Below are positions 13,485 through 53,283 of a stretch of 64,000 nucleotides of DNA, one piece after another; positions within the stretch are counted from its first letter, which is position 1; the number at the start of each line of letters is the position of its first letter. The DNA lies in contig NZ_CP158374.1 of NCBI RefSeq assembly GCF_040267705.1, forward strand, positions 124,001-188,000, read 5' to 3'. A program made the translations under genes and the position numbers. This DNA is from Agromyces sp. G08B096. GTDB lineage: Bacteria; Actinomycetota; Actinomycetes; Actinomycetales; Microbacteriaceae. The notes beneath the pieces are model-generated. The model did not search any database. It had not been told where the DNA came from and worked only from the letters and a program-made list of their open reading frames with translations.

Positions 13485-13510
13485 GGAATACCAGACCGGC
13501 GCAGGAGGTT
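13485..13510 (+). promoter_or_regulatory. SigR/SigH-type promoter of the dnaK operon (GGAAT-N18-GTT)
   Basis: GGAAT at 13485-13489 and GTT at 13508-13510 are separated by exactly 18 bases, the consensus of the actinobacterial ECF factors SigR (Streptomyces) and SigH (mycobacteria). The clpB promoter has the same two elements, the same spacing and the same ACCAG after GGAAT. The GTT forms the first three bases of an HspR site. Confidence 0.72.
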
Positions 13511-13528
13511 GAGCCGAGTACACTCAAG
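13508..13528. promoter_or_regulatory. HAIR operator 1 for HspR
   Basis: GTTGAGC-N7-ACTCAAG matches the HspR inverted repeat CTTGAGT-N7-ACTCAAG except for the first and last bases of the left arm. The G in place of C creates the GTT of the stress promoter, so the repressor site and the -10 element coincide. Confidence 0.85.
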
Positions 13529-13543
13529 TTTCACCTCCGCGAC

Positions 13544-13572
13544 TTGACAGGTTCACGAGCGGTTGCGACACT
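13544..13572 (+). promoter_or_regulatory. Possible second, housekeeping promoter of dnaK
   Basis: A perfect TTGACA (13544-13549) is followed after 17 bases by GACACT (13567-13572), a weak -10 box whose last two bases enter HAIR 2. The -35 is convincing, the -10 less so. Confidence 0.4.
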
Positions 13573-13591
13573 TGAGCCGTCGGGACTCAAG
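13571..13591. promoter_or_regulatory. HAIR operator 2 for HspR
   Basis: CTTGAGC-N7-ACTCAAG matches the HspR consensus at 13 of 14 arm positions. It covers the expected start region of the second promoter. Confidence 0.88.
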
Positions 13592-13696
13592 TCTTGGCGG
13601 TCACTGACTTCGGCTGCGGGCGAGGAACGCCGGGCCGACCGCCGAACGCGGGTGCGGGGCATCCGTTCGCCGCTCTCGGCAGAAGGAGATACACAC

Positions 13697-51496: not shown

Positions 51497-52066
51497 ATGG
51501 CCGAGGTGCTGCTCTACCACCACATCCAGGGCCTGACCGATGGCGTACGCGCATTCGCGGACGAGCTACGGAACGCCGGTCACACCGTGCACGCGCCCGA
51601 CCTGTTCGAGGGGCGCACGTTCGCCGGCATCGAGGAGGGGTTCGCGTTCGTTCGCGAGACGGGATTCGACGCGATCCGCGACCGCGGCACCGCCGCGGCC
51701 GATGAGCTCGGATCCGACCTCGTCTACGCGGGCTTCTCGTTCGGCGTGACGATCGCGCAGGGACTCGCGCAGACGAGACCCGGCGCCCGCGGCGCCCTCC
51801 TCCTCTTCTCCTGCCTCCCGGTCTCGGAGTTCGGGGAGTCGTGGCCCGACGGCATGCCGGTGCAGATCCACGGCAAGGAGGACGACGAGTACTTCGCCGA
51901 AGACCTGCCGGCCGCGCGCGAGCTCGCGGCGTCCACGCCCGACGCCGAGCTGTTCATCTACCCGGGAGGGCAGCACCTGTTCGCCGACTCCTCGCTCGGC
52001 GACTTCGACCCAGAGGCATCCGCGTTGCTCATGGAGCGGGTGAAGGCATTCCTCGGCGCGCTCTGA
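51497..52066 (+). CDS. Dienelactone hydrolase family protein
   Basis: 189-residue alpha/beta hydrolase. YHHIQGLTDGVRAFADELRN, VHAPDLFEGRTFAGIEEG, YAGFSFGVTIAQ with Ser in the nucleophile position (Cys in classical dienelactone hydrolase), HGKEDDEYF and YPGGQHLFAD with the catalytic His. Cytoplasmic; substrate unknown. It lies divergent from the ArsR regulator and is its likely target. Confidence 0.88.
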   Translation: MAEVLLYHHIQGLTDGVRAFADELRNAGHTVHAPDLFEGRTFAGIEEGFAFVRETGFDAIRDRGTAAADELGSDLVYAGFSFGVTIAQGLAQTRPGARGALLLFSCLPVSEFGESWPDGMPVQIHGKEDDEYFAEDLPAARELAASTPDAELFIYPGGQHLFADSSLGDFDPEASALLMERVKAFLGAL

Positions 52067-52107
52067 CCGGCGTCACCCGGGCGCCAGGAGCCGCGTGGCG
52101 ACCGCGA

Positions 52108-53136
52108 TCAGGCGGTCGTCGGCTCCCAGCCGAGGCTCGGCGCGACGTGCTCGGCGAACGCGGCGACGAGGCGCAGGTTGAACTCCACGCCCAGCTGGCT
52201 CGGGATGGTCAGCATCAGCGTGTCGGCCGACCGGATCGCGGCATCCCGCTGCAGTTGCTCGACCAGTTTGTCCGGCGTCGCCGCGTAGGTCTTGCCGAAC
52301 GTCGAGCGGATGCCGTCGATCATGCCGACGCCGTCGCCGTCCTGGCGCCCGCCGAAGTACAGCTCGTCCTCCGCGGTCGTGATGGGGAAGATCGAGCGGC
52401 TCACCGACACCCGCGGCTCGCCCGGGGGGCCGGCCTCGCGCCAGGCTGCGCGGAAGGCCTCGATCTGCTGCGCCTGCAGCTCGTCGAACGGGAGGCCCCG
52501 GTCCTCGGTGAGCAGCGTCGAGGACATCAGATTCACCCCGACGCGGCCCGCCCACTCGGCGGAATCGCGGTTGCCCGCACCCCACCAGATCCGCGAGCGA
52601 AGCCCGGGCGAGTACGGCTCGATGCGCTGCATCCCGTGGCCGCCGCCGAACTGCGACGACGGGTCGCGCTCGGCGAGGCCCTCGCCCTCGATCGCCTGCA
52701 GGAAGCGCGCGAAGTGATCGCGCGCGAGGTCCGCGCCCCGCGGGTCGGTCGACCCCGTGTAGCCGAACGCCTCGTAGCCCCGGATCACGGTCTCGGGTGA
52801 CCCCCGGCTGACGCCGAGCGCCAGCCGCCCGCCCGAGATGAGGTCGACGGCCGCCGCCTCCTCGGCGAGGTGCAGCGGGTTCTCGTAGCGCATGTCGACG
52901 ACGCCCGTGCCCATCTCGATGCGCTCGGTGCGGGCCGCGATCGCCGCGAGCAGCGGCATCGGCGACGCCTGCTGGCGCGCGAAGTGGTGCACGCGGAAGT
53001 AGACGCCGTTCACGCCCAGGTCGTCCATGCCCTGGGCGAGGTCGATGGCCTGCAGCATCGAGTCGGCCGCGGAGAGCTCGCGCCCACCGCCCAGGGGACC
53101 GTAATGGCCGAACGAGAGGGTTCCGAAGCTCCGCAT
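52108..53136 (-). CDS. LLM-class flavin-dependent oxidoreductase
   Basis: 342-residue TIM-barrel enzyme of the luciferase-like family, using FMN or F420. SFGHYGPL at the start, MGTGVVDMRYENPLHLAEEA and LGVSRGSPETVIRGYEAFGY are the flavin-binding barrel segments, and WGAGNRDSAEWAGRVGVNLM the later loop. Whether it uses FMN or F420 is undecided. It converges on the dienelactone hydrolase gene; 5' side faces the clpB promoter region. Confidence 0.88.
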   Translation of the reverse strand: MRSFGTLSFGHYGPLGGGRELSAADSMLQAIDLAQGMDDLGVNGVYFRVHHFARQQASPMPLLAAIAARTERIEMGTGVVDMRYENPLHLAEEAAAVDLISGGRLALGVSRGSPETVIRGYEAFGYTGSTDPRGADLARDHFARFLQAIEGEGLAERDPSSQFGGGHGMQRIEPYSPGLRSRIWWGAGNRDSAEWAGRVGVNLMSSTLLTEDRGLPFDELQAQQIEAFRAAWREAGPPGEPRVSVSRSIFPITTAEDELYFGGRQDGDGVGMIDGIRSTFGKTYAATPDKLVEQLQRDAAIRSADTLMLTIPSQLGVEFNLRLVAAFAEHVAPSLGWEPTTA

Positions 53137-53239
53137 GCCTGTTCCAACGCCGGCCCCGCGCGGCGCATTCCAGGCAGCCCTGGTGGGGGCGGGGCATCCG
53201 GTCTAGCGTGAATCGCGGGGGAGATTCCGCGGGGGATGC

Positions 53240-53265
53240 GGAATACCAGCCGTTCTCGCAAAGTT
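53240..53265 (+). promoter_or_regulatory. SigR/SigH-type promoter of clpB (GGAAT-N18-GTT)
   Basis: GGAAT at 53240-53244 and GTT at 53263-53265 are exactly 18 bases apart, as in the dnaK promoter, and the 10 bases from GGAAT onward (GGAATACCAG) are identical in both. The GTT starts the HAIR operator. Confidence 0.72.
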
Positions 53266-53283
53266 GAGTTGACTAGACTCAAG
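53263..53283. promoter_or_regulatory. HAIR operator for HspR upstream of clpB
   Basis: GTTGAGT-N7-ACTCAAG matches the HspR consensus at 13 of 14 arm positions, the one change (C to G) supplying the GTT of the stress promoter. A TAGACT box within it (53274-53279) could also serve as a housekeeping -10. Confidence 0.88.

Follow-up and report, generated by a model that had tools for sequence, protein, structure and literature searches.

A SigR/SigH-type promoter predicted to share its -10 triplet with an HspR operator upstream of dnaK and clpB in Agromyces and its relatives

Upstream of both dnaK and clpB in the window (the whole 64,000-nucleotide stretch of Agromyces sp. G08B096 DNA analysed here), a GGAAT-N18-GTT element is fused to a HAIR, the inverted repeat predicted to serve as HspR operator, in such a way that the HAIR begins on the G of the GTT. 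This architecture is certain at the two loci, and the coordinates and geometry given for it in the earlier note proved exact. We conclude that the two sites are probably dual-use elements, in which an arm of the HspR operator doubles as the -10 of a SigR promoter under stress logic. The HAIR consensus is CTTGAGT-N7-ACTCAAG, and mismatches to it are counted in the features listed here.

13485..13489, + strand: GGAAT, -35 of the predicted SigR/SigH promoter of dnaK (sequence match; register peak in relatives)
13508..13510, + strand: GTT, -10 of the predicted SigR/SigH promoter of dnaK and bases 1 to 3 of HAIR1 (sequence match)
13508..13528, + strand: HAIR1 of dnaK, predicted HspR operator, G-first (two mismatches)
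13544..13549, + strand: TTGACA, predicted housekeeping -35 between HAIR1 and HAIR2 of dnaK (sequence; TTGAC conserved in the family)
13567..13572, + strand: GACACT, weak predicted housekeeping -10 of dnaK, its last two bases being bases 1 and 2 of HAIR2
13571..13591, + strand: HAIR2 of dnaK, C-first, 63 bases after HAIR1 (one mismatch)
13697..15565, + strand: dnaK, ATG at 13697 (profiles NF001413 and TIGR02350)
15568..16212, + strand: grpE (best profile models score below their own cut-offs)
16300..17286, + strand: dnaJ, 328 aa (best profile models score below their own cut-offs)
17274..17705, + strand: hspR, for the repressor that binds HAIR (NF047375, 137.1 bits against a cut-off of 105)
53240..53244, + strand: GGAAT, -35 of the predicted SigR/SigH promoter of clpB (sequence match)
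53263..53265, + strand: GTT, -10 of the predicted SigR/SigH promoter of clpB and the first three bases of its HAIR (sequence match)
53263..53283, + strand: HAIR of clpB, predicted HspR operator, G-first (one mismatch)
53306..55555, + strand: clpB, 749 aa, lacking the N-terminal domain (TIGR03346, 1143 bits, below the cut-off of 1232, aligned from profile position 147)

The dnaK composite at 13485-13528 reads GGAATACCAGACCGGCGCAGGAGGTTGAGCCGAGTACACTCAAG and the clpB composite at 53240-53283 reads GGAATACCAGCCGTTCTCGCAAAGTTGAGTTGACTAGACTCAAG, both exact matches in the window. At either gene 18 bases separate GGAAT from GTT, consistent with the extracytoplasmic function (ECF) promoter form GGAAY(R)-N17-19-GTT, and the GTT lies 187 bases before the start codon of dnaK and 41 bases before that of clpB. 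All three HAIRs are recognizable inverted repeats, with two mismatches in dnaK HAIR1 and one each in dnaK HAIR2 and the clpB HAIR, and hspR itself lies in the dnaK operon, which has the usual order dnaK, grpE, dnaJ, hspR. HAIR2 of dnaK appears to lie outside the ECF promoter and is C-first, in contrast to the G-first HAIR1. Among named loci, the best DNA matches are from Agromyces, at 92% for dnaK (L330) and 88% for clpB (L309). Both composites are present in all six genomes of the window's genus that were examined. The identical geometry claimed for the two genes holds in the window, but the clpB spacing is N19 in three of these six genomes. Likewise, the decamer GGAATACCAG is indeed identical at the two window loci but is not kept within the genus; we rejected it as a signal, the corresponding bases in genome G079 being GGAATACCGT at dnaK and GGAATACTCA at clpB.

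The register of the GGAA and the base at which the HAIR begins were followed through the window's family. A motif scan of 120 family genomes with GGAAN18-20STTGAGN9CTCAA found 34 sites, spread over 25 genomes; the HAIR starts with G in 30 of them and with C in 4, and the reversed pattern that served as control matched 4 times. For a motif-free sample, upstream regions were found by protein, 70 for dnaK (113 genomes matched) and 70 for clpB (118 matched); one dnaK region without a HAIR pair and eight clpB regions in which no HAIR came within one mismatch of the consensus were left out, so that 69 and 62 were used. GGAA stands exactly 18 bases before the first HAIR base in 14/69 dnaK and 17/62 clpB promoters, whereas other spacings average only 0.27 (dnaK) and 0.31 (clpB) GGAA each. 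Counting spacings of 17 to 19, composites are found in 18/69 dnaK and 18/62 clpB promoters, and they tend to occur together: 11 genomes have both, six and six have one only and 28 have neither (p 0.0014, with kinship ignored).

The earlier note had suggested that relatives be scanned for a C-to-G change in HAIR arms next to GGAAT, and here the two genes part company. At clpB the first HAIR base is G in 16 of the 18 promoters with GGAA versus 7 of the 44 without (p 1e-7, too small given kinship), and collapse by genus leaves 12 and 2 versus 6 and 31 (Fisher p 7.8e-6). At dnaK the association is weak, G heading HAIR1 in 17/18 promoters with GGAA but also in 30/51 without (p 0.007, again too small given kinship). 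Because related genomes share descent, such p-values overstate the case, the genus collapse being the sole correction applied. We also looked for a degenerate -35 behind the 30 G-first HAIR1 arms without GGAA; at gaps of 17 to 19, none of them came as close as one mismatch to GGAAT. A G in this position of dnaK evidently needs no ECF -10, since it is present in those 30 of 51 promoters and in four of six Mycobacterium-like genomes as well. The claim that HAIR2 keeps its C was borne out, in the window and in 13 of the 18 composite dnaK promoters of the family (four have G and one A). Comparisons within genera bear on the clpB coupling in both directions. Genus g2 (G001 with GGAAT and G, G085 without GGAA and with C) and genus g32 (G105 with GGAAT and G, G031 with GGAAC and C) fit it, and genera g9 (G091, C next to GGAAT) and g12 (G in both genomes, GGAA in neither) go against it; G031 and G091 are the two clpB composites of the family that keep C.

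The sites likely function as SigR promoters under HspR control, and the genome encodes the proteins that this would require. A profile search of the 3.59-Mb genome identified a SigH/SigR-type sigma factor (TIGR02947, 307.6 bits against a cut-off of 251.55), and the adjoining gene encodes an RsrA-type anti-sigma factor (64.2 bits against a curated cut-off of 62.5). A homologue of SigR/SigH, whose absence would have told against the earlier note's proposal, is thus present together with its RsrA; the cognate pair of sigma factor and zinc anti-sigma factor is encoded. RsrA was found in 116 of the 120 family genomes, although only eight of these matches exceed the curated cut-off. Loss of SigR as the reason for the absence of GGAAT from most of the family promoters surveyed was discarded on this ground, and the presence or absence of GGAA looks like a matter of promoter wiring, not of loss of the sigma system.

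It is conceivable that the superposition is real and yet SigR is not its main reader, the promoters being read by one or more other ECF sigma factors, for instance one resembling SigE. The genome has 14 sigma region-2 matches, the P2dnaK promoter of Corynebacterium glutamicum is described as read by both SigH and SigE (PMC10012870), and of the 43 sites in the class survey that belong to neither dnaK nor clpB (see below), 32 have GGAAC, not GGAAT. Against this, the sigR gene of this very genome is preceded by the same kind of promoter, GGAATACC-N18-GTT, with the GTT 129 bases before the ATG; the family composites have GGAAT in 17/18 cases at dnaK and in 17/18 at clpB; and RsrA is nearly ubiquitous in the family, as noted above. 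We consider a main reader other than SigR unlikely.

A second alternative is that HspR governs mainly housekeeping promoters, that the SigR promoter has little activity or is there by accident and that the G-first HAIR has another origin. There is indeed a housekeeping signal next to these operators. TTGAC starts 26 to 28 bases before HAIR2 in 65/69 family dnaK promoters, the bases before HAIR2 are most commonly TAAA (22/69) or CAAA (16/69), and the CT of HAIR2 appears to finish a housekeeping-like -10. At clpB, TAAA directly precedes the HAIR in 39/44 promoters without GGAA and in 13/18 with it, so that a housekeeping -10, TAAACT or TAAAGT, probably overlaps the HAIR arm. In addition, G-first HAIR1 arms exist without GGAA and, in Mycobacterium-like dnaK, without superposition. 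On the other hand, the GGAA peak at a single spacing, the recurrence in many families and the co-occurrence at two genes are unlike an accident. Furthermore, the clpB promoter of the window reads CAAAGT where relatives read TAAAGT; both housekeeping-like -10s of the window, this one and the GACACT of dnaK, are poorer than the versions of relatives. We find this alternative quite improbable.

Finally, that GGAAT came to stand 18 bases ahead of two HAIRs by chance is barely credible: the motifs are short, shuffled sequence predicts 0.56 matches to GGAATN17-19GTT alone in the window and HAIRs of up to three mismatches are no commoner in the genome than their reversed control, but both window sites are close HAIR matches ahead of HspR-type genes, both composites recur in all six genomes of the genus examined and the register peak across family promoters is sharp. 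In numbers, GGAATN17-19GTT has three matches in the window, two of them the dnaK and clpB sites (1 of 100 shuffles reached three), HAIR at up to three mismatches has three matches against 0.61 expected (2 of 100 shuffles reached three), and a GGAAT at one given register has a p of about 3.6e-4 if the base frequencies are taken to be those of DNA with 72% G+C. In the whole genome, HAIR at up to three mismatches is noise, with 69 matches against 98 for the reversed control.

At up to two mismatches to a G-first HAIR, the genome has five places: clpB, the two HAIRs of dnaK, and positions 2830796 and 2831511. The HAIR at 2830796 stands before a second ClpB-like gene, at a SigR-type promoter (GGAAT-N17-GTTGAA-CTTGAG); there the HAIR is displaced downstream by six bases and its arm is C-first. 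The match at 2831511 sits inside a long open frame. Three other matches to GGAATN17-19GTTGAG, looked at as sequence, are also found in the genome.

The pair of operators at dnaK is regularly spaced. Among the 69 family promoters, in which HAIR pairs were sought only at 48 to 75 bases apart, the distance from HAIR1 to HAIR2 is 61 to 65 in 58, 52 to 54 in ten and 70 in one. When no bounds were set, the distance between the last two close HAIRs was 62 to 65 bases in 52/63 promoters, 52 to 54 in nine, and 27 and 70 once each. The spacing is phased at 10.5 bp (Rayleigh R 0.89, with kinship ignored), and since it equals six or five helical turns, two HspR complexes at dnaK would face the same side of the DNA.

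Beyond the family, the -10 register was found in 80/394 genomes and 44/138 genera of the class, with 91 sites listed against 14 control matches. We classified 87 of these sites, leaving out those of G000 and G079: 32 are at dnaK (31 with G), 12 at clpB (10 with G) and 43 elsewhere (32 with G, 11 with C). Thirty of the 43 were read downstream, and 29 of them precede lon (22 with G, 7 with C), one being unassigned. A scan of named genomes with the G fixed gave at least 119 stretches, of which the 80 listed are all actinobacterial by their titles; among the 80 matches listed, 38 are at dnaK, 20 at lon, 17 at clpB and one at another Clp gene, and four are unassigned (two of them at locus ends).

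A second register is found in other lineages. In the Mycobacterium-like clpB promoters examined (6/6), from genus g102 of family f11, the spacer of the HAIR reads GGAAC and a GTT follows 18 bases on, so that the operator there sits on the -35. The corresponding pattern, TTGAGNGGAAYNNNCTCAAN9-11GTT, occurs in 120/394 genomes and 32/138 genera, with no match of the control pattern tabulated; the 21 genomes that represent the window's family in the class survey all lack it. Of 29 such sites checked, 28 are at clpB, 491 to 571 bases before the ClpB AAA match; the 29th lacked clpB coordinates and was left out of the distance count. In Mycobacterium-like dnaK (6/6), the ECF promoter GGAAC-N18-GTT ends 12 to 14 bases before HAIR1 and has no base in common with it, from which it follows that superposition is not required for joint control; HAIR1 is nevertheless G-first in four of the six, though the GTT lies elsewhere. 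In Corynebacterium urealyticum (L257), clpB is preceded by two HAIRs; the -35 of a single GGAAT-N18-GTT lies in the first, and its -10 is supplied by the second.

How might a dual-use element of this kind work? We propose that the -10 triplet of a SigR/SigH-type ECF promoter is formed by the outermost G and the TT in one arm of the HspR operator, so that HspR on the HAIR would cover the -10 and the start region and block the SigR holoenzyme. Such direct competition between HspR and SigR polymerase is plausible, and the genes for hspR, sigR and rsrA are all present. In unstressed cells, HspR would occupy the HAIR, with DnaK acting as its co-repressor as it does in mycobacteria, and RsrA would hold SigR. 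Thiol stress would release SigR, and protein damage would pull DnaK off HspR and thereby unseat the repressor. Full firing might then occur only with the repressor off, joining redox and folding signals. We infer this binding, occlusion and signal logic from the arrangement of the sites. At dnaK, HAIR2, helically in phase with HAIR1, would overlap the predicted housekeeping promoter and stand in the path of transcripts started by SigR. At clpB, a single operator could block both polymerases, since in relatives its arm also forms a housekeeping-like -10 (TAAA-CTT/TAAA-GTT). Not all observations sit well with the dual-use reading: only 18/69 dnaK and 18/62 clpB promoters of the family are composite, though RsrA is present in 116/120 genomes, and seven of the 29 lon sites read as well as two clpB composites keep C. 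If the reading is correct, folding (HspR/DnaK) and thiol redox (SigR/RsrA) inputs are wired base by base onto one 21-bp element, and a one-base prediction follows, namely, that the G of the clpB HAIR arm serves the sigma factor and not the repressor.

More tentatively, it is possible that across actinobacteria the HspR operator supplies core promoter elements in three ways, its outer arm as ECF -10 (GTT), its spacer as ECF -35 (GGAAY) and its arm as housekeeping -10 (TAnACT). A single C-to-G change in the arm would then add SigR reading to an HspR-controlled housekeeping promoter, and lineages may have switched repeatedly at dnaK, clpB and lon. The clpB promoter of C. urealyticum, with both ECF registers in one promoter, would illustrate this.

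The principle as such is known: the literature already has overlap of HspR and SigH sites at M. tuberculosis clpB (PMC4803200) and the combination of a SigH promoter and HAIR boxes at Corynebacterium dnaK (PMC3917453). The superposition, put forward as new in the earlier note, is novel only in part, as overlap of HspR and SigH sites has been published; the shared -10 register was not found in the literature searched. The same applies to the shared -10 triplet, the C-to-G coupling at clpB, the class spread and the phased second HAIR, a weak negative, as subscription papers were mostly outside the scope of the search. According to the accessible text of PMC4803200, which also gives the SigR/SigH-type promoter consensus, HspR represses M. 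tuberculosis clpB at a site overlapping the SigH promoter, and repressors may occlude SigH sites; the paper cites Raman 2001 and Stewart 2002. DnaK is described as co-repressor of HspR (PMC8223512, PMC10415612), and weak or absent induction of heat-shock genes in the absence of RshA, dnaK-grpE included, has been ascribed to regulators such as HspR (PMC3489674).

Of the known systems, M. tuberculosis clpB is similar in gene, repressor, sigma family and overlap of operator and SigH promoter (PMC4803200), and the clpB site of the window, whose operator and ECF promoter have bases in common, is of this published kind. It differs in register: the Mycobacterium-like relatives (6/6), which stand in here for M. 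tuberculosis, have the HAIR on the -35, whereas the window's HAIR is placed over the -10 and shows the C-to-G change. The dnaK region of Corynebacterium resembles that of the window in combining a housekeeping and an ECF promoter with HAIR operators, with P1 assigned to SigA and P2 to SigH in the legend of Fig. 2 of PMC3917453 and P2dnaK of C. glutamicum to SigH and SigE in PMC10012870. We draw this likeness from legend and text, not from the figure; the spacing of P2, GGAACA-N16-CGTT, equals GGAAC-N18-GTT, and no remark on the base of the HAIR arm was found in the legend and passages of PMC3917453 considered. Lastly, the confirmed HspR targets of Streptomyces coelicolor, dnaK, clpB and lon (PMC2687793), are the genes that also carry most of the assignable class composites. 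In what we presume to be Streptomyces (family f26), however, the -10 register is found in 0/39 genomes and the -35 register in 14/39. Given that the two overlap registers are split between lineages in this way, the logic of repression at the -10 versus the -35 can be tested on natural promoters.

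The two copies of HAIR, the inverted repeat predicted to serve as the HspR operator, that precede dnaK (HAIR1 and HAIR2; window pair, 13508-13591) lie 61 to 65 or 52 to 54 bases apart in 68 of the 69 dnaK promoters surveyed in the window's own family, which corresponds to about six and five helical turns, respectively. When the pair search was run without a distance limit, the same two ranges accounted for 61 of 63 dnaK promoters. Such near-whole numbers of turns suggest that HspR binds both HAIRs on the same face of the DNA, perhaps cooperatively. The operon also encodes a DnaJ, in whose translation no CxxCxGxG zinc-finger repeats were seen:

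16300-17286: dnaJ of the dnaK operon, 328 aa

The second chaperone locus of the window carries:

53306-55555: clpB, 749 aa, matched by the ClpB model from position 147 onward only

Given this late start of the match, the encoded ClpB lacks the N-terminal domain. Among the matches listed, many family entries have similar ClpB open frames of approximately 710 to 780 aa, and most entries from other families have frames of at least 850 aa.

Elsewhere in the genome, near 2830796 (L023), a second ClpB-like gene has a HAIR of its own, which retains C in its arm, and a GGAAT-N17-GTT; the two are six bases off the fused geometry, in which GTT forms the first three bases of HAIR. Within 1796184-1797300 (L004, L006), GGAAT-N18-GTTGAG occurs approximately 880 bases upstream of a sigma region-2 match belonging to the genome's highest-scoring sigma-70 gene, for which it is possibly a SigR-type promoter.

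Among relatives, 20 of the 62 clpB promoters of the family (f1) carry CTRG beginning 28 bases upstream of HAIR, directly ahead of the place of GGAAT. At clpB of Corynebacterium urealyticum (L257), two tandem HAIRs share one GGAAT-N18-GTT, with the -35 element inside the spacer of the first HAIR and an arm of the second as the -10 element.
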